From the NCBI GenBank assembly GCA_013044245.1, contig JABEVK010000044.1, positions 1-43,827 of the forward strand: a stretch of DNA of 43,827 nucleotides. Reading direction: 5' to 3'. The translations under genes and the position numbers were made by a program. The notes below the pieces were generated by a model. That model was not told the DNA's origin. It saw nothing but the letters and a program-made list of their open reading frames with translations, and made no database searches. Positions 8,574-17,885 of the stretch are shown here, piece after piece. The stretch is from Spirochaetales bacterium. GTDB taxonomy: Bacteria; Spirochaetota; Spirochaetia; JABEVK01. Within the stretch, counting starts at the first letter, position 1; the number at the start of each line of letters is the position of its first letter.

Positions 8574-11336
8574 TCAGTGTGCGTGCGGTGCCGGCGCAAG
8601 ACCCGCCGCAAACGAATCGGGGGTAATGCCCACGTAGACTTGCGGGTTAGTGAAGCCCCCCACTCCGCTTTCAGCCTGCGCGGCTACCCCCACGGTGAAG
8701 GGGAGGTGAATCTGACCAAGAATCAACAAGGTATTGAACTCAAGACCATAGGTAAGTCCTTGGTCAAAGTTTGGTGAGGCTTGCCACTGCCCCTGGGCAC
8801 CGGCATCTACCCAGGCACTTAACCCTTGAACGGGTGCGCCTAACCCCAGCAGGTTGATGTCGGCGAAGCCAAAAGGCCACGTTATTTCGAGCTGTGCGTC
8901 TGTCCTCCACCTATCAGATATCCCATGGGTGTTGAGAGGCAACGGCGAGTACGAAGGGGTCATCAAAATCAGCGAACCCTGACTATCGACAGTAGTCTGC
9001 AAACGCCCCTGAAAAAGCACCGGTCCGATGGGGATTCCCCCCTGAAGGGTGTTAAAAACGTCAGTCTTGAGAACACTTTGACTCCAGACGGGCAACGTCC
9101 ATTGCGCGACCGCTTTCTCGGACCAGCCCCAGGAACCGTAAGGTTGGTTGACAGAGGCGTTGGGGTTTGATTGTCCCCACTGAAGTGCCACTTGGGTGAC
9201 TAGGTTATTGGTTATCCAGGTCGGAGTGTGATCACTCGTCGTCACCACAGCCGCCTGAACGGTTGAGCGGTTAATGAGTTGGGGAGTATCCCACTCACCC
9301 CAGGGTACCGAGGCCACCATTTCGGCGGCGTCAAACATTTCATTGGTGGTGGGTTGCAAAAGGGTACGGCTTGTCGACACCAACCCTTGCCACCCGGGGG
9401 CCCGCCACGAATAGCTAAAACTTCCCGTCACCAACTGGTTCATTTGTGGAAAATACTCACCCATTAACTGCCAGGATTGAGTCTCGAGAAGCGAAGTTCC
9501 CGCTAGGAAGGCTCCCGCGCCCAAGGTCCAATTTTGTCCCGTGCCTGTCAACGTCGGAAAAGGAAGAGGAATCCATAAATTGGGAAGTGGCAAGTCACAC
9601 CAGGGGTGTGATACCAGCACAGGAGGTGCCTTGACCGACGGAGGGCTGGGCTGTTCGGCTACAAGTGGCATTGGCTGGCGCTCGGGCAAGCTGAGGTTCT
9701 TGTACTGCTTAAGTGCCCAACCTTCCCACGTATAGGTTTGATACAGCAGACTGTTGTTAACCAGGATTCCTGAAGCATCGCCCACCGGGTCACGGGGTAA
9801 CCTCTGCCACGTATGGTGGGGAACATCGACCAACCACAGGTCAAGACGACCCGCTTGATCGGTGGAAACAGTGAGCTGAGTTGAATTCACCCAACGGGGA
9901 AAGTACAACGCCGCACCGGTATTGAGGTGTTCTTTGACCTGTCCACTGGCGTCAGTGATGGTCAGCCCCTGTTGCCCCCTCAGGTTGTCGATAAAAACGA
10001 GGGATTGACCATCTGGTGACACCGCCAAGGTTTGCAAAAGGTGGTTTTTGGCCTGGTAGATGACCTTAAAGTGACCGGAAAGGTCACCCTTGACCAGAAC
10101 TTGCTGTGTACCCCGTCGTTGGAACGCCCACCAAGTGTGACCCTCGGGCGAAAGTTGGGGAGAGTAAAAGCCCGTCGCCGGGGATAGCCGCTTGAGGCGC
10201 CCGTCGTGGGCCAGCCACAGCGTAAACTTTTCGGTATCGGTTTCTGGTTGACTAGTTTGATTGGTCGTTAACGGGCTTGAAACCAAAAATGTCTTTCCGT
10301 CGGCACTCACCCCAAAGGAATAAGGGTCTGACAGGCTGACAGGCAACAAAAGCTGTGGGGGGTTACCCTGAAGGCTTTCAAGGTACAACCCAGGAGCACT
10401 GGCTTCGGGTACCGCATACCCCACAAAACCGCGAGCGGTGGGGTACGGGAGGTACCAGTCCCCTTGCCCCGCTGGGGATACCAACGTACCCGGGATAAAA
10501 GAGGCATCGGGGGCAAATTTTTTGAGCATAAACTTTTGGGCAGCATGGAAAAAGGCCGGACCGCTGAGGTGAGTGTAGGCTTCGAGAGCCCTGTTGTACC
10601 CCCAAAAGATCGCCCAGGGTGAGTTTACATCATTGAGGTAAATAGTGTTAAAGGCTTTTTCGCCCCAGTGTTCCCTCAGGTAATCGACCATCATGAAGCC
10701 CGAAGGATACCAACGGTCATAGGGGTGTAAAAAACTCCCGTAGGCCGCTTGATCGTAGGTCCACATGTGATGTTCCAACAACGGCGCCTTATACTCCATT
10801 TCGAAAAACGGGTTACGAGCACGCCCCCCCGAGGCAAACATTCCCTCGGTATTGGTGGTGATCCCCTCGACAGCCCAACCGGGGAGAAACAACATATTGT
10901 AAGCAGGAGCGTCAGAGCCCAAAAGCCAACGCCAGGCCCCAACCCCTTGGGGTTGAGAAAGGTGCACAAAATGGGTGAACTCATGAACTAACAGATTACG
11001 CAGATAGTCAGTCGAATACGCCGAAATCAGAGTCGTTGTCGGCGGGGCGACAAACAGGTTAAGCCGACGCGGTAGAAAAGCAAAAAAGCCATTAAAGGCG
11101 TCCGAGGTCGTGCGGACCACCGCCAGGACGTGCGTTGGTCGGTAGCCGAAGTACCCGGTCACCTGTTGATAAACCTCTTCGGCAAACGAGGCCAATTTTA
11201 ACGCTGGAAGTTTACCATCAGGCTGGTAAACGAAGGTGAAGTGTTCGGTAGAGATTTCACGCCACGCTGGCTCGGCCGACAGGTTAGACGAAATAATCAG
11301 AGCCAAAACGAGCGACAGACCAACTTTCTTCACCAT
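8574..11336 (-). CDS. Exported zinc metallopeptidase fused to a beta-propeller and a C-terminal barrel-like domain
   Basis: A 920-residue exported protein. A signal peptide is visible (KK, hydrophobic stretch, cleavage near A21-E22). The first third resembles gluzincin peptidases of the MA type: HEFTH (residues 118-122) with a downstream WAVEG (154-158) whose E157 is a likely third zinc ligand. The middle (about 280-560) contains repeats typical of TolB/WD40-like propellers (for example LSPEGHTWWAF, VSPDGQSLVFI). The last 300 residues are rich in alternating aromatic strands ending near a PxVYVGI motif, like surface-antigen or outer-membrane barrel domains. AAGGAAG lies before the ATG. It is divergent from the carrier/barrel/RND operon and shares its control region. 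A role in processing outer-membrane or periplasmic substrates is inferred. Confidence 0.85.
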   Translation of the reverse strand: MVKKVGLSLVLALIISSNLSAEPAWREISTEHFTFVYQPDGKLPALKLASFAEEVYQQVTGYFGYRPTHVLAVVRTTSDAFNGFFAFLPRRLNLFVAPPTTTLISAYSTDYLRNLLVHEFTHFVHLSQPQGVGAWRWLLGSDAPAYNMLFLPGWAVEGITTNTEGMFASGGRARNPFFEMEYKAPLLEHHMWTYDQAAYGSFLHPYDRWYPSGFMMVDYLREHWGEKAFNTIYLNDVNSPWAIFWGYNRALEAYTHLSGPAFFHAAQKFMLKKFAPDASFIPGTLVSPAGQGDWYLPYPTARGFVGYAVPEASAPGLYLESLQGNPPQLLLPVSLSDPYSFGVSADGKTFLVSSPLTTNQTSQPETDTEKFTLWLAHDGRLKRLSPATGFYSPQLSPEGHTWWAFQRRGTQQVLVKGDLSGHFKVIYQAKNHLLQTLAVSPDGQSLVFIDNLRGQQGLTITDASGQVKEHLNTGAALYFPRWVNSTQLTVSTDQAGRLDLWLVDVPHHTWQRLPRDPVGDASGILVNNSLLYQTYTWEGWALKQYKNLSLPERQPMPLVAEQPSPPSVKAPPVLVSHPWCDLPLPNLWIPLPFPTLTGTGQNWTLGAGAFLAGTSLLETQSWQLMGEYFPQMNQLVTGSFSYSWRAPGWQGLVSTSRTLLQPTTNEMFDAAEMVASVPWGEWDTPQLINRSTVQAAVVTTSDHTPTWITNNLVTQVALQWGQSNPNASVNQPYGSWGWSEKAVAQWTLPVWSQSVLKTDVFNTLQGGIPIGPVLFQGRLQTTVDSQGSLILMTPSYSPLPLNTHGISDRWRTDAQLEITWPFGFADINLLGLGAPVQGLSAWVDAGAQGQWQASPNFDQGLTYGLEFNTLLILGQIHLPFTVGVAAQAESGVGGFTNPQVYVGITPDSFAAGLAPAPHAH

Positions 11337-11406: not shown

Positions 11407-11435
11407 GTAAACTTGTGGCCCGATCTTACTTGACA
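11401..11435. promoter_or_regulatory. Perfect 10-base inverted repeat holding both divergent -35 boxes
   Basis: TGTCAAGTAA (11401-11410) and its exact reverse complement TTACTTGACA (11426-11435), 15 bases apart. Each arm contains TTGACA, one for the minus-strand metallopeptidase gene and one for the plus-strand LolA-like operon. The symmetry fits an operator for a dimeric regulator that acts on both promoters at once. Confidence 0.6.
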
Positions 11436-11457
11436 AAACTCATGCGTCGTTTAATAT
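11430..11457 (+). promoter_or_regulatory. Probable promoter of the LolA-like/barrel/RND operon
   Basis: Perfect TTGACA (11430-11435), a 16-base spacer, and TAATAT (11452-11457). A second TATAAT (11471-11476) lies further down without a clear -35 partner. Transcription would start roughly 40 bases before the ATG at 11505. Confidence 0.55.
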
Positions 11458-11504: not shown

Positions 11505-12287
11505 ATGAAAACTTTACTTCGCTTGGCCAGTGTGGCCTTGGTGGGCTGGGTAGCGGTCAGTCCGGCGCTCGCCGATCAGCAAGGGGACAGTATCGCCAAG
11601 GCCTACTTTCAGCTAAAAAAGGCGCATGACACTTTTGCAGTTGCCACAATGGTGATCGTCGACCAGGACGGGAATAAAAAAGTTCGTAAACTCGAAATGT
11701 GGACAAGGGAAACTTCTGACTCAAAAGAAGCACTCACAAAGTTTTTACAACCCGCAGATGTCGCCGGCACGAAGTTTTTAACGGTGAGCCATGAAGGCGA
11801 GCCTACTGACCAGAGGCTCTACCTGCCTGCGTTGGGTAAAACTCGTAAGATCGCATCAAGTGATAAATCGGGAAAGTTCGTCAATTCTGATTTCTTTTAC
11901 TATGACTTAGAAGCCCGCTATTACGGTGATGACCGGTATAGCTTTTTAGAAGATGGCGCAACGTTACCAGATTACCCGGGAATGACGTTTTCGAAGATCG
12001 TTATGAAGGCAAAATCGGGGGAATGTCCCTATGCCAAGTCAATCGCCTGGGTCAACGATGACAACCATTTTATCTATCGAATTGATGTCTTTTCAAAAGA
12101 TGATGGCGGGCTTTGGAAAACCATCAAGTTTGGAAAGGTCAAAGATATCGACGGGGTTTTGATTCCCACTGAAACTTTGGTGATCAATCATCGGGGCCAT
12201 TCCAAGACACTGCTCGTTATCAGCGACTTAAAAGTCAATCAGGGAGTTTCAGCAAGTCTCTTCTCGGTCAAAGGCCTAGAGGAATAA
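11505..12287 (+). CDS. Periplasmic LolA-like outer-membrane lipoprotein-sorting protein
   Basis: A 260-residue exported protein with a clear signal peptide (cleavage after SPALA, residue 23). The body is the incomplete-barrel LolA-like fold found in the family annotated as outer membrane lipoprotein-sorting protein: repeated strands with a typical MWTRETSDSKEALTKFLQPA segment, a RLYLPALGKTRKI segment, and a SDFFYYDLE segment. Such proteins carry a lipid or lipoprotein across the periplasm. GAGGAGG precedes the ATG. It is the first gene of an operon with an outer-membrane barrel and an RND pump; the same carrier-pump pairing occurs in Treponema, and a carrier-barrel-pump grouping (DUF1329/DUF1302/RND) occurs in Proteobacteria. 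The cargo is unknown. Confidence 0.88.
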   Translation: MKTLLRLASVALVGWVAVSPALADQQGDSIAKAYFQLKKAHDTFAVATMVIVDQDGNKKVRKLEMWTRETSDSKEALTKFLQPADVAGTKFLTVSHEGEPTDQRLYLPALGKTRKIASSDKSGKFVNSDFFYYDLEARYYGDDRYSFLEDGATLPDYPGMTFSKIVMKAKSGECPYAKSIAWVNDDNHFIYRIDVFSKDDGGLWKTIKFGKVKDIDGVLIPTETLVINHRGHSKTLLVISDLKVNQGVSASLFSVKGLEE

Positions 12288-12298
12288 GGAGGCTCGGC

Positions 12299-13828
12299 GT
12301 GCGTTCATTGCTATTCGTGGCCGCTCTGTTGGCCAGTGCTGGTCTTGTGACGGCGCAGGACCTTAGTTCGGAATTGGGAGGCGATATGGGGATAGCCTCA
12401 GGCTCAGCCCCTTCCCCTCTTTCGGTCAGCGGTGATCATAGCGTTATTTATCACCAGCCCTTGTGGTCGGATAATTGGACCTATTCCAGTCCAGCCCTGG
12501 AGCCCGAAATGGACAATTCTCTTGGCTTCACCTATAAAACAGGTCACCTCAAATTGGTCGCCAACGGAACCGTGAAAACTTTTGCCAGCCCTCAAGGCTG
12601 GGCAGCCCTGTCCCAGTTCGAGATCGGAGAAACCTACCTTTCGTGGACCCCAGGAAATTTCCTGGTAAACCTAGGCTACCAGGTCTTCAACTGGGGGGTC
12701 GCTGACAAGTTCAACCCCTCCGATGGTCTGAACGCACGCGACTATGCTGTTTCGATGGACGCCCCGAAAATCCCCCTTTTGGCGGCAGATGTCCGTTGGT
12801 TTCCCGCAAAATGGCTATCAGTTGAGGGCGTGATTTCACCCTATCAAAGTCCCAGCCGTTTTCCTGTAGACTTTACCGCCAATACACAAGGGGGTCTCGA
12901 AACCACGGCTGCTGAGCTTGCTAGTTCCCCTTTGGGTAGCTACTATGCGTCCTACAGCCCGCAAACAAGCGCCGTTTTTGCCCCGGATGATCCCAATTCC
13001 GCGGTCGCTGGGGCCAGACTCAACGTCTACTCGGCGGTGGATCTGGGCGTCAGCTATATATACGATATCGACCCCTACGCAACCCCCGAAGTAACGATGG
13101 AGGGCCTTGTAGGACCAAGTTCCACCACCCTTTGGGTACCGAAACAAGTCACACTCGTCTATAAAAGGATTCACCGTTTTGGCGTCGATGCCAAAACTAC
13201 CGTGGGTCCCCTAGGCCTTTGGGGAGAAGGCGGTTTTGACCTCACAGAAAACCCTTGGGACACCTCGGACCAAATTCGACGAGACAGGCTGGCCTGGACT
13301 TTGGGAATGGATTTTAACTGGGGCTACCACAACAACTTTTACACCAACTTGCAGTACATAGGGTCGTGGGTTCCCGGTTATGATCAAACCACACAGTCCG
13401 ATTACGCCTCCCCTCTAAGCCTTGCTCAGCTCACCAACCAAGCCTATATGCAGACCATGACCTACCGGCAATTGACGCAAACCTTGGGGGATTATACAGA
13501 AACCTGGCTTCAGGGCCTCACCTTTAAGCTAAAATTCCCCTTCGATTCTGATACCTTTACCCCCTCAATCAGTGGGGTATTTACCGTTCCCTTCGGGTAT
13601 GACTCAACGCTAGAAACTAGGTACGCCTCACTGGCCATCAAACCCGAACTGGACCTTATGCCGGCTGATTCTTTTCACCTCAGAGTAGGAGCCGACTTAG
13701 CCTGGGCCTGGGTCAAAAAAGTCGGCCAAACAGCGGTTACCCTCGATACCAACGTAGACCGTATCGGCGTGTATACCCCCTACAACGATGTCTATATCAG
13801 TGTCGACTATCAGTGGACGACTCAATAA
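12299..13828 (+). CDS. Outer-membrane beta-barrel protein, DUF1302-like
   Basis: A 509-residue exported protein. A GTG start follows AGGAGG; the signal peptide ends near VTAQ (residue 19). The rest alternates polar and aromatic residues with many glycines and ends in aromatic strands (VYISVDYQWTTQ), as expected of a barrel inserted in the outer membrane. The segment NWGVADKFNPSDGLNARDY with following RWFPAKW resembles the DUF1302 barrels that accompany RND permeases and LolA-like carriers in Proteobacteria. It sits between such a carrier (11 bases upstream) and such a pump (10 bases downstream), so it is probably the outer-membrane exit or acceptor of the pathway. The exact family call is inferred from pattern. 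Confidence 0.82.
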   Translation: MRSLLFVAALLASAGLVTAQDLSSELGGDMGIASGSAPSPLSVSGDHSVIYHQPLWSDNWTYSSPALEPEMDNSLGFTYKTGHLKLVANGTVKTFASPQGWAALSQFEIGETYLSWTPGNFLVNLGYQVFNWGVADKFNPSDGLNARDYAVSMDAPKIPLLAADVRWFPAKWLSVEGVISPYQSPSRFPVDFTANTQGGLETTAAELASSPLGSYYASYSPQTSAVFAPDDPNSAVAGARLNVYSAVDLGVSYIYDIDPYATPEVTMEGLVGPSSTTLWVPKQVTLVYKRIHRFGVDAKTTVGPLGLWGEGGFDLTENPWDTSDQIRRDRLAWTLGMDFNWGYHNNFYTNLQYIGSWVPGYDQTTQSDYASPLSLAQLTNQAYMQTMTYRQLTQTLGDYTETWLQGLTFKLKFPFDSDTFTPSISGVFTVPFGYDSTLETRYASLAIKPELDLMPADSFHLRVGADLAWAWVKKVGQTAVTLDTNVDRIGVYTPYNDVYISVDYQWTTQ

Positions 13829-13838
13829 GGAGAGCCTC

Positions 13839-16427
13839 GTGGAAAAATTTCTCAGAGCCAGTGGACGCCTGTATCGGCACCCCCGCTTGGTTCTTTTATT
13901 GGCCTTTGCCGTCACCCTCGCGTTGGGTTGGGCTTTGCCGAAGATCCAATTTGACAACAGTATCCGATCGATGCTACCGGCGAATAACCCCGCTTTGATG
14001 CTAGACAACTACTATGAAGCAGAAAGCCGTTTCGGCAAGAGTTCCATGATCATTGTCGGTGTTAAAAGTCAGGATGCCTTTTCGCCGACAACCTTAAGCT
14101 ATTTGCAAAATCTTACCGCCAAGGTTCAAAAGCTCAACCGAACCCTACCCGCACAGCAGTTAAGCCGTTGGTTGGGAGTTTCGGTTAAAGATGCACAACA
14201 AATTGTCGACGCCGCTCTTGACCAGGGTCTTGACGCCAAAGACTTTGTTAAAACGTTCTATCCTTGGCTCATCGACCCCGCACAGTCGATGAAGAACCTT
14301 GGTTGGAAGGCTCCCTTAGCACAGAGAGTCGCAACAGCCAGCCGGGGCAAAGACCCTGTAAAGTTTTATGCCTGGCTCGAAAGTCCGATAAAAAAAACGC
14401 AATCGTTGATTAACGCCGACTATATCGCCAACGAAGACGGTTCGTTAGTCAGCGACAAACTCCTCCCTGAGGGAACCGTGATCACTCCAGAAGTCGCCGC
14501 CAGCCTAAAAGCCAAAGCGGAATCGTGGAGCATTTACCGCAATGTTCTTTACTCACAAGACGACCGATTCGCGACGTTGATCATCCAACCAAAGACCGAG
14601 GATGCCGATGTTCAGCTCAGTCTTGTCACAGCGATCCAACAGGTACTGAACCAGGACCACAGTCCGGGCATCACTACCTACCTGGATGGAGAACCCGTTA
14701 TCTCGAGCGATATGGGCACCACGTTAAAATCGGATTTAGCACTCCTGATGCCCCTCGTCATTTTGGTTGTTCTGATCGTGCTCTTTCTCAGCTTTAAAAA
14801 CGTGCAGGGTGTTCTATACCCCATGATCGTCGTCATTATGGGTGTGGTCAGTGCCCTAGGGGCGATGGCCTGGTTAGGGATCCCCATTTCGATCGCCTCT
14901 GTTACGTTGCCGCCTTTAATGGTGGCTATCGCCAGCGCCTATGGCATCCACCAGATGAACCACTATTTTCTTGACCCTGGGCACGACAAACGCGAGATTT
15001 TGACCCGCAACCTTGGTGTTGTCGGCCTGGCTGTGACCTTATCAGGAATCACCGTCATGGTGGGCTTTGGCGCTCTGGCGGCCGAAGATTTTGTGCCCAT
15101 CAAAAACTTTGGTATATTTACGGCTTTTGGAGACTTAGTGGCTGTTGCCGCCGCCCTATGGGTTCTTCCTGCCGCGATTCTCTGGAGTAAAAAACCTAAA
15201 AATCTTGCCTACCATGAGCCGACTAAGGGGATGGTAGGCCATTTACTCAAGGGAATGGTTCACCTTAACAGGCGCTGGTCTTGGCTAATTCTTGTCATTT
15301 CCCTGGCGCTAACCGCAATTTTCGCAGTTGGTGTCTTTTTCGTAAAGTCAGAGCTCAATAACGTTTCGTTTTTCAAGAAGGAATCCCCAATTCATGTGGC
15401 AGATGACGTTTTGAACCGCGAACTGGCGGGGACTCAGACGATCAACGTGATTCTGGACTCGCAGTTTGGTGAAGGAAAGACCAAGGGAGAACCTGTGTCC
15501 TTGGTCACACCCGCCGTTTTGAACAAAATTGATGCGTTCTCGCACGCGGTTAAAGCCAAGTTCCCCTATGCCACCAAGACCTTGTCATTTGTGGATATTA
15601 TCAAAAAAATGAATCAAGAGATGAACGGGGGTTCGCCGCAATTTTATACCATCCCTCAAGACCCCAAACTGATCGCACAGTACTTGTTCATTTTTTCAGG
15701 CGATATCCATAGTGTCGTCACCGACAGCCACGATAAACTCAGAATCTCGATTACCCTTAAACGGGTCGGTACTGATGACTCAGAAGCGGTCGCAAACTTT
15801 GCGCGACAGTACTTTGATCCGGCGTTTCAACAAGCCAATCACCTCCATGTAGCCATCACGGGAACAGCGCACCTCTACTATGTAGGGAACTCTCTCTTGA
15901 TGGACGGCATGATCAAGAGCATTGAAATCTGTGTAGTTCTTGTTTTCATCTTGCTCTTGGTGGTGTTGAAAGATTTTTGGATGACGTTGATTGCCATGAT
16001 CCCTATCGCCATGACGTTGGTCATTGATTTTGGGGTATTGGGTCTGTTTGGCATCCCCCTCAACACGGCGACAGCGATGGTTTCGTCTATCGCCATCGGT
16101 ATCGGGGTCGATTATTCGATCCACTACATCACCTGGTACCGGTCAGAACTCCGCCGGCGCCCCGACATTCACCTCGCCCTCGAAAATACCATTCTGCACA
16201 AAGGGCGTGCCATTCTTTACAATATGTTTGTGATCGTCGCGGGATTCCTTGTTCTGGTGGTTTCGAATTTCGTCCCATTAATCCAGTTCGGATTTTTAAC
16301 CGCCATCTGTATGCTAACAACGGCGTTTGGAGCACTGATTGTCGTCCCTGCAGTAATTCTGCTGCTCTCAAAAAAGAACTTCAAGTTCCTGTACTTGGGT
16401 ACGCTCACCGCTAAGTCTGAAGAATAA
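13839..16427 (+). CDS. RND/MMPL-superfamily exporter, inner membrane
   Basis: An 862-residue pump with the RND repeat: one TM helix (about 17-34), a large periplasmic domain (35-300), five helices (305-455), then the same again (about 495-515, 520-700, 705-855). The second half has the conserved GIGVDYSIHY (about 754-763), where the Asp is the likely proton relay; the first half has the equivalent SAYGIHQMNHY without an Asp (about 365-375). Related proteins (COG1033 type) move lipids, hopanoids or siderophores. The GTG at 13839 is preceded by AAGGAGA and is preferred to an in-frame ATG at 13788 inside the barrel gene. It is the last gene of the carrier-barrel-pump operon and is followed by a terminator. 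Confidence 0.92.
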   Translation: MEKFLRASGRLYRHPRLVLLLAFAVTLALGWALPKIQFDNSIRSMLPANNPALMLDNYYEAESRFGKSSMIIVGVKSQDAFSPTTLSYLQNLTAKVQKLNRTLPAQQLSRWLGVSVKDAQQIVDAALDQGLDAKDFVKTFYPWLIDPAQSMKNLGWKAPLAQRVATASRGKDPVKFYAWLESPIKKTQSLINADYIANEDGSLVSDKLLPEGTVITPEVAASLKAKAESWSIYRNVLYSQDDRFATLIIQPKTEDADVQLSLVTAIQQVLNQDHSPGITTYLDGEPVISSDMGTTLKSDLALLMPLVILVVLIVLFLSFKNVQGVLYPMIVVIMGVVSALGAMAWLGIPISIASVTLPPLMVAIASAYGIHQMNHYFLDPGHDKREILTRNLGVVGLAVTLSGITVMVGFGALAAEDFVPIKNFGIFTAFGDLVAVAAALWVLPAAILWSKKPKNLAYHEPTKGMVGHLLKGMVHLNRRWSWLILVISLALTAIFAVGVFFVKSELNNVSFFKKESPIHVADDVLNRELAGTQTINVILDSQFGEGKTKGEPVSLVTPAVLNKIDAFSHAVKAKFPYATKTLSFVDIIKKMNQEMNGGSPQFYTIPQDPKLIAQYLFIFSGDIHSVVTDSHDKLRISITLKRVGTDDSEAVANFARQYFDPAFQQANHLHVAITGTAHLYYVGNSLLMDGMIKSIEICVVLVFILLLVVLKDFWMTLIAMIPIAMTLVIDFGVLGLFGIPLNTATAMVSSIAIGIGVDYSIHYITWYRSELRRRPDIHLALENTILHKGRAILYNMFVIVAGFLVLVVSNFVPLIQFGFLTAICMLTTAFGALIVVPAVILLLSKKNFKFLYLGTLTAKSEE

Positions 16428-16428
16428 A

Positions 16429-16467
16429 AGAAAGGCCTTGCTCTCGAAAGAGGCAAGGCCTTTTCTT
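16429..16467. terminator. Bidirectional rho-independent terminator
   Basis: A strong hairpin with arms AAAGGCCTTGCTCT and AGAGGCAAGGCCTTT around a CGAA loop, one bulged base, followed by TTTTCTTT on the plus strand and preceded by AAAAG on the other. It lies between the converging RND gene and LysM lipoprotein gene and can stop both. Confidence 0.9.
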
Positions 16468-16481
16468 TGCTGGAGATGCTG

Positions 16482-17885
16482 TTATTGCGGAGGAATGATC
16501 AACTGCCAGCCCGGATAGATCAAATCAGGGTTTTGAATGAGCTTTTGGTTTCGTTTCCAAATCTTAGGCCAATCCAAAGGCCGGCTGTAGATATTCGGAT
16601 AACCCGCAATACGCCATAGGCTGTCGCGATGCGCTGGAATGAGGCGCACCGTATACACCTTATCAACAGCCATCTCAAGGTAAATATCCACTAGACGTTG
16701 AGCATCAAGAAAATACTGCGAAGCTAAAACGTAGTTCCCGCCTTTATAGAAGGAAACTCCTTTTTCCCAAGTTGTCTTTGCCTCTTCAAGGTAATCCAAA
16801 CGGCTTTTTTCGGCCAGTACGACGGTTGATCCATCATGGGGGATGAGCTCGGAATGGCCTTGCGAAGGATTTGGGGTTGGCAAAGGTGACGTAGCTGGTG
16901 CCGGTGAAGGTGTAGCCTCGGCGGGAGGTGCCGCGTCTAACGCTTTTTGCCCATTCCAGGGACGAGGACCAATAATCTGATCTTCGGGGGTAACCACTGT
17001 CGCTTGTGAAGCTTTTTCGATTTTTTGCATCGTAGCTTTCATCAGAGCTTCAGCGTTCTTTTTTTGGTTTTGGGTCAAAGCCGCATTCTGCGCTTGTTGG
17101 GCCTGAAATTCCGCTTGCGTCCAGGCTTCTAAAGCCGCTTCTAAATGATACGAACGGTAGGAGACAACTCCCTGGAGGAAGGAGTCCCCCGCTTTTTGAA
17201 GCAGATCGGGTACCCAAATCATGGCCTGAGCCTGCTCGGCGGCGTGAATGGCCTTTTGAGCCGCACCTTTTTTTTGCTTGGCCGTATCGAGGTTTTGACT
17301 CACTTTATCGTAGAGTTTGACTAAAGCTTCCAGGGCAGTTCCGCCCTGAGCCTCGCCTTGATCCACGTTGGTCTGAAGTTCCTTCTCGGCGGCGAGACGT
17401 AAAGCGTCATCTTTTTGAAATTCCGCGGGATAGAACTTGTCGCCTTTTAAATCAACGATGAGTTGTCGGGCACGGTCCAAACGAGCCATCATAGCCGCAC
17501 GCCTGGCGGCTAAGGCATTGTCACGAGCCGTATTGGCATCCGTGACGGCTTCGGACAACAAGATTCGAGCCTTTTCGGGGTCAGATTGTCCCAAAGAATG
17601 GGCTTGTTTCAACTCTTCTTTGGCCCTAGCCAACATCGTAGGACTATAGCGCTCAGCCTGAGCCGCTTCGGCCTGACTGATAGCGTTTTCAGCCGGACCA
17701 TAATCGCTGGCTGTTAAAGCATTGGGAACCACTTGCGGTGCGACGGGCTTTTCGGGCACGGGAGTGGGTTTAACCTCTTGAGGCTTAGGAGCTACTGGTT
17801 GCGCCGAGGGGGCGGGTGGAGCAGAGGGACAACCTGTCAAAAATAAGGCCATCGAGATAAGAACCGCTGTCACGGCAAACTTCAT
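16482..17885 (-). CDS. Lipoprotein with helical repeat region and C-terminal LysM-like domain
   Basis: A 467-residue lipoprotein. The lipobox LFLTGC puts the lipidated Cys at 19. A Pro-rich linker (20-55) and an Ala/Gln-rich helical part (60-290, TPR-like or coiled coil, with repeated AEKEL/AKEEL patterns) follow, then a second Pro-rich linker (320-345). The end (about 410-467), YTVRLIPAHRDSLWRIAG ... WKRNQKLIQNPDLIYPG ... LIIPP, is a LysM domain that binds peptidoglycan. It probably anchors or spaces the outer envelope, or serves as a scaffold. Its AGGAGG lies 9 bases before the ATG. It is divergent from the FecR-like gene. Similar LysM lipoproteins are common in treponemes. Confidence 0.87.
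   Translation of the reverse strand: MKFAVTAVLISMALFLTGCPSAPPAPSAQPVAPKPQEVKPTPVPEKPVAPQVVPNALTASDYGPAENAISQAEAAQAERYSPTMLARAKEELKQAHSLGQSDPEKARILLSEAVTDANTARDNALAARRAAMMARLDRARQLIVDLKGDKFYPAEFQKDDALRLAAEKELQTNVDQGEAQGGTALEALVKLYDKVSQNLDTAKQKKGAAQKAIHAAEQAQAMIWVPDLLQKAGDSFLQGVVSYRSYHLEAALEAWTQAEFQAQQAQNAALTQNQKKNAEALMKATMQKIEKASQATVVTPEDQIIGPRPWNGQKALDAAPPAEATPSPAPATSPLPTPNPSQGHSELIPHDGSTVVLAEKSRLDYLEEAKTTWEKGVSFYKGGNYVLASQYFLDAQRLVDIYLEMAVDKVYTVRLIPAHRDSLWRIAGYPNIYSRPLDWPKIWKRNQKLIQNPDLIYPGWQLIIPPQ

Follow-up and report, generated by a model that had tools for sequence, protein, structure and literature searches.

Three adjacent genes in a Spirochaetales genome (GenBank assembly GCA_013044245.1, contig JABEVK010000044.1; the whole stretch of 43,827 nucleotides that we analysed is called the window) encode a LolA-like periplasmic carrier, an outer-membrane β-barrel and an inner-membrane pump of the resistance-nodulation-division (RND)/MMPL type, which very probably work together as one unit. 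We draw this conclusion because the linkage of the three families is conserved, because pump and carrier occur as natural fusions, and because the carrier–barrel pair is kept with two unrelated engines, the RND pump and an ATP-binding cassette (ABC) transporter. The unit is probably a three-part, proton-driven outward route for a hydrophobic or amphiphilic small molecule or lipid, leading from pump to carrier to barrel. Its genes are:

11505–12287, + strand: LolA-like periplasmic carrier gene, ATG start, 260 amino acids
12299–13828, + strand: outer-membrane β-barrel gene, predicted divergent DUF1302 type, GTG start, 509 amino acids
13839–16427, + strand: RND/MMPL inner-membrane pump gene (HAE3, COG1033-like), GTG start, 862 amino acids

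The open reading frame coordinates confirm the layout given in the original prediction, with 11 bases between carrier and barrel and 10 between barrel and pump, and the three identities proposed there are borne out by PF17131 for the carrier, a DUF1302-type fold and profile for the barrel, and PF03176 for the pump. Each start is preceded by a Shine-Dalgarno sequence (AGGAGG for the carrier and the barrel, AGGAG for the pump), while an alternative in-frame start of the pump, an ATG at 13788, would run into the barrel gene. Both flanking genes (8574–11336 and 16482–17885) are opposite in strand to this tight cluster, so that the transcript probably comprises these three genes only. Candidate expression signals lie on either side:

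11430–11457, + strand: promoter-like site TTGACA-16-TAATAT upstream of the operon, from a consensus scan only, in a region where the number of matches is near chance
16427–16468, + strand: strong intrinsic-terminator-like hairpin 3′ of the pump, minimum free energy −26.9 kcal/mol, z −3.6, a free energy reached by 0 of 200 shuffles

We surveyed 60 related genomes for barrel matches to about E = 1e-17, counting a carrier when it lay no more than 600 bases away, and a pump no more than 3500 bases away, on the strand of the barrel. Carrier and pump both accompanied the barrel in 56 of 71 strong matches. Selection enters this figure, because carrier-linked loci contributed to the profiles used to search for barrels and pumps; loci later shown to hold both had already turned up in the initial search, made with nothing but the window barrel. 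The other matches had a carrier only (5), a pump only (5) or neither (5), several of these incomplete cases being contig ends. The complete sets came from 33 of the 60 genomes, and because the three families recur together so often, their grouping in an operon is more than chance; the trio thus stays together, as the original prediction required. Nearly all of these sets have the order pump–carrier–barrel. The window order, carrier–barrel–pump, is common to L066, L103, L108, L110, L111, L115 and the Sulfurimonas group, and the survey count for this order includes one false case (G030), in which two tandem units lie side by side.

Named records place the trio in Spirochaetales, Campylobacterota (Sulfurimonas and relatives), Bacillota (Halanaerobiales and others, lineages that are presumably diderm), a Myxococcales bin and candidate FCPU426, with further examples in Prevotella (Bacteroidota), Ilyobacter and Haliovirga (Fusobacteriota), Photobacterium and Pseudoalteromonas (Gammaproteobacteria) and Sulfitobacter (Alphaproteobacteria). 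This occurrence across many two-membrane phyla rules out a spirochaete-specific system. The suggestion in the original prediction that a spirochaete unit with all three parts is notable in itself is not supported: the trio is widespread among diderms, is annotated part by part in RefSeq, and has proposed equivalents. Many trios adjoin a TetR_N gene, which fits a ligand-controlled small-molecule transporter. On a plasmid of Sulfitobacter sp. DSM 110093 (L206, 1–8569), a type I polyketide synthase lies directly upstream of the MMPL and LolA_like genes, with galE and a barrel-family gene downstream of them; we regard this neighbour as a cargo clue for the family.

Joint function is further supported by natural fusions of the RND pump to the carrier, with the LolA_like part C-terminal. 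We found them at three loci, each adjoining a barrel gene:

L123, 4664–7681: pump–carrier fusion, 1005 amino acids
L198, 2289–5384: pump–carrier fusion, 1031 amino acids
L197, 2363–5923: pump–carrier fusion, 1186 amino acids

A similar MMPL–LolA protein with a neighbouring porin has been described in Thalassolituus, where it is induced on long-chain alkane (PMC6304351). Together, linkage and fusions support the proposal that the operon forms one unit with a component for every envelope layer, the membrane locations being predicted.

The carrier–barrel pair also occurs with a different engine. Among 20 carriers picked for having no nearby pump, 18 were encoded in an operon with two FtsX permeases and an ABC ATPase. 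The pump-linked barrel profile recognised the downstream gene in 13 of these 18 operons (E 2e-4 to 2e-14), and the other five had an unrecognised frame of similar size at the barrel position. The genome from which the window comes holds three more carrier and barrel-like pairs beside FtsX/MacB-type permeases (L087, L088 and L089, at G000:C142, C3 and C56, respectively); L087 has an adjacent ABC ATPase too, and the barrel match of L088 is weak (13 bits). We counted a single engine change on a tree of 118 engine-labelled carriers, compared with at least 16 in 200 shuffles, and therefore reject repeated engine swapping. The tree was quick, without bootstrap and with long branches, and related sequences cluster anyway; its pattern shows two old lineages rather than frequent exchange. 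It is plausible, and we propose it tentatively, that a LolA3-type carrier and a DUF1302-type barrel form a general outer-membrane delivery cassette driven by either an RND/MMPL pump or an FtsX-type ABC transporter. Such a cassette would add a trans-envelope architecture to those of tripartite efflux, Lol and Lpt, and the DUF1302-like barrel would be the missing partner of orphan LolA3 carriers.

The carrier matched PF17131 (LolA_like) alone among Pfam families (E 6.7e-42; 143.7 bits against a cut-off of 30; residues 74–259); canonical LolA (PF03548) was not matched. Its N-terminus, read by eye, is signal-peptide-like (..SPALA/DQ). The AlphaFold (AF2) model, with a predicted local distance difference test (pLDDT) of 92.7, has the half-barrel fold of the LolA superfamily. 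Its best fold matches, with template modelling (TM) scores spanning 0.83–0.94, were 3bk5 (0.85/0.94), Porphyromonas gingivalis LolA3 (9tp6; 0.83/0.90) and the DUF1329 protein 4z48, whereas canonical LolA reached only about 0.4/0.5. The closest solved relatives by profile were likewise LolA3 9tp6 (8e-80), 3bk5 and 4z48. Because the fit is high to these three and low to canonical LolA, the modelled carrier is assigned to the LolA3/DUF1329 subtype, not to canonical LolA.

The pump carries two MMPL repeats (PF03176, E 9.4e-44; 150.1 bits against a cut-off of 20.5). Its best NCBIfam model was HAE3 (TIGR00921), at 267.8 bits and under the cut-off of 351.9, and the closest solved chain was that of the hopanoid transporter HpnN (6wu0), likewise an HAE3-type RND pump, although the window pump scores far under the HpnN family cut-off. 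In transmembrane helix 10 (TM10), the family alignment conserves a G-x-D-Y motif with its acidic Asp-Tyr pair. TM4 reads Ser-Ala-Tyr-Gly-Ile-His, without an acid, and its His is invariant across the family. These residues were read from alignments, of which the one combining fusions and separate proteins misplaced the C-terminal halves of the pumps.

The barrel was less readily classified. By itself it gave no Pfam match up to E 1 and no NCBIfam match, the PF06980 (DUF1302) cut-off not being reached. A PF06980 search of its own genome found no match, nor did any control genome match in that search; a single-protein search of plasmid records returned nothing, and the barrel profile retrieved only a chance antibody match from PDB sequences. 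The N-terminus, by eye, is signal-peptide-like, and the AF2 model (pLDDT 85.4, predicted TM score (pTM) 0.81) is all-β with a confident transmembrane β-barrel fold, whose Foldseek neighbours were MOMP, AlgE, Wzi and OprD-type proteins at TM 0.4 to 0.6. Family relationship emerged from its relatives: 14 of 35 aligned barrels from carrier-linked loci matched DUF1302, the best being L072 (8.9e-14), with L067 as another example (8.6e-13). We then aligned the profile of the window barrel clade, with no member picked for a DUF1302 match, to a DUF1302-positive profile that includes one Methylothermaceae protein, and hhalign joined them at 99.95 %, E 2e-38, over 386 columns. These profiles indicate that the barrel is of a divergent DUF1302 type, too divergent for current models; the possibility that it belongs to an unrelated porin family does not hold.

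The porin-like fold of the barrel, and the lack of a family match of its own for one of the three window proteins, could suggest that the genes share an operon without forming a joint machine, the barrel being an ordinary porin in loose linkage. We consider this highly improbable given the linkage in 56 of 71 matches, the pump–carrier fusions and the retention of the carrier–barrel pair with two unrelated engines.

Systems of similar make-up provide context for a joint route. In Prevotella nigrescens, K8O81_RS10290-10300 are annotated by RefSeq as MMPL, outer membrane lipoprotein-sorting protein and DUF1302; they are adjacent on one strand like the window trio, and the window profiles match all three proteins strongly. 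They differ in their order (pump–carrier–barrel) and in having ABC half-transporters upstream, and we found no functional study of this trio in the literature. AmeABCD of Castellaniella defragrans, which acts in monoterpene metabolism, combines a DUF1302 outer-membrane protein, a DUF1329 carrier, the periplasmic AmeC and an HAE3-type RND pump (PMC6394551). Compared by family make-up rather than direct alignment, it likewise encodes a barrel, a LolA-superfamily carrier and an RND pump together. The window operon differs in its PF17131 carrier and in lacking a fourth component: no AmeC-type periplasmic COG4447 gene lies between 11505 and 16427. Similarly, a new transport system has been proposed from predicted contacts for Pseudomonas putida PP_0765/PP_0766/PP_2018/PP_2019, in which PP_0765 and PP_0766 are needed on Tween 20, with contacts predicted between the two and with the RND protein (PMC10866462). 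This set shares the DUF1302 barrel, LolA-fold carrier and RND-type transporter with the window, but its genes lie in two places, its carrier is of the DUF1329 family and it has an extra periplasmic protein.

Other comparisons concern the carrier and its ABC-linked relatives. P. gingivalis LolA3 (PDB 9TP6), the closest solved carrier relative by profile and among the best by fold, has been studied more than any other carrier of its subtype. It barely binds LolB, which suggests that it needs another partner (PMC13103446); deletion of lolA3 in Flavobacterium johnsoniae gave no phenotype (PMC11885536). P. gingivalis PG1178-PG1181, an iron-regulated operon of TetR, MMPL, LolA-like and hypothetical genes (PMC10434189), resembles the window operon in make-up, though we do not equate PG1179 with LolA3 (PGN_0947). 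Borrelia BBJ23-BBJ29 encode a LolA-like carrier, a MacB-like ABC transporter and an outer-membrane barrel (PMC13078400). They resemble L087–L089 of our genome and differ from the window unit in their ABC engine and in a barrel assigned to Omp85, not DUF1302.

From these parts we infer the following route. The pump, in the inner membrane, would draw its cargo, a small molecule or lipid of hydrophobic or amphiphilic nature, from the outer leaflet of that membrane, powered by the proton gradient. The soluble LolA-like carrier would receive the cargo from the pump and shield it through the periplasm, then dock on the DUF1302-type barrel, which would insert the cargo into, or pass it through, the outer membrane.

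The original prediction had envisaged a lipid or lipoprotein route whose cargo is undescribed. The cargo of the spirochaete operon is still undescribed, and comparison favours a small molecule or lipid over a lipoprotein: relatives act in monoterpene (PMC6394551) and Tween 20 (PMC10866462) metabolism, the Sulfitobacter set adjoins a type I polyketide synthase, TetR regulator genes often lie next to the trio, and a canonical LolA is encoded elsewhere in the genome (PF03548 at G000:C45:10603-11064, L208; 36 bits against a cut-off of 23.6). This separate LolA makes it unlikely that the operon supplies the main lipoprotein carrier of the cell. LptD was not found in the genome with its Pfam model, which a divergent LptD could escape. 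If the route served lipoprotein sorting, lipoproteins would be extracted by the pump, or by the ABC transporter in its stead, and the carrier–barrel pair would deposit them within the outer membrane or on it, with the barrel taking the role of the missing LolB. The LolA fold of the carrier is compatible with such a role; the related pairs with FtsX/MacB-type permeases and an ABC ATPase have the architecture of LolCDE; and Borrelia BBJ26-BBJ28 are proposed to act in this way with an Omp85-family barrel (PMC13078400). Sorting by LolCDE, LolA and LolB uses an ABC engine, whereas the window unit has an RND pump in that position, and such pumps are not known to extract lipoproteins. In addition, the carrier fits canonical LolA far less well than LolA3 or DUF1329 proteins, and the TetR, Ame, Tween 20 and polyketide contexts of the relatives suggest small molecules. 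The lipoprotein part of the original proposal is therefore distinctly unlikely, and its lipid part, widened to small molecules, is what we favour.

The direction of transport admits another explanation, uptake of hydrophobic compounds, in which the barrel would admit the compound, the carrier would ferry it inward, and the RND protein would serve as an inner-membrane receptor or in membrane protection. To our knowledge, RND/MMPL proteins of known function transport outward or towards the outer membrane. HpnN is a precedent as cited in PMC6394551, according to which it works without a dedicated carrier or barrel. The Sulfitobacter trio, following a biosynthetic polyketide synthase, also fits export. 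By contrast, growth on monoterpenes requires or induces the Ame genes (PMC6394551), and induction of the Thalassolituus fusion on long-chain alkane (PMC6304351) is also suggestive of uptake. On balance, we judge an uptake route unlikely.

Several observations weigh against the proposed outward, proton-driven route. Its direction is the weakest point, being taken by analogy from RND precedent, and hydrophobic substrates are imported and broken down by the hosts of several DUF1302/DUF1329 systems. An acidic residue would be expected in both TM4 and TM10, yet the pump sequence has just one of the two, so proton drive is not assured. The Foldseek matches of the modelled barrel are of a generic porin type, so that the route through it is a proposed one. 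The operon copy in the window has no adjoining TetR gene, and the neighbours at 8574–11336 and from 16482 onward point to no cargo. The two flanking genes are:

8574–11336, − strand: divergent neighbour, 920 amino acids, without clear family, carrying HEFTH, which resembles a zinc-protease motif, and a stretch similar to the TolB propeller (weak TIGR02800 match)
16482–17885, − strand: putative lipoprotein that contains DUF4398, has an end resembling LysM and shows weak similarity to leptospiral LipL71

As a source of cargo clues, the neighbour genes (helicase-like, β-lactamase-like, ion channel, histidine kinases, pirin and LrgB) formed no pattern.

The part names in RefSeq and the equivalent DUF1302/LolA-fold/RND systems proposed in Castellaniella and P. 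putida were already known. New are the three pump–carrier fusions, the carrier–barrel pairs with FtsX-type ABC transporters, a carrier tree on which the engine changes once, and the separate canonical LolA. Taken alone, the window adds an ordinary copy, divergent in sequence, of a cassette that is widespread; interest comes from the engine pattern, from the fusions, in which pump and carrier are one polypeptide, and from the partner prediction. Specifically, for LolA-like carriers without LolB as a partner, P. gingivalis LolA3 among them, we predict that a DUF1302-like barrel fills this role. Naming this barrel partner addresses the question of how hydrophobic molecules may cross the periplasm in bacteria beyond the Escherichia coli type.

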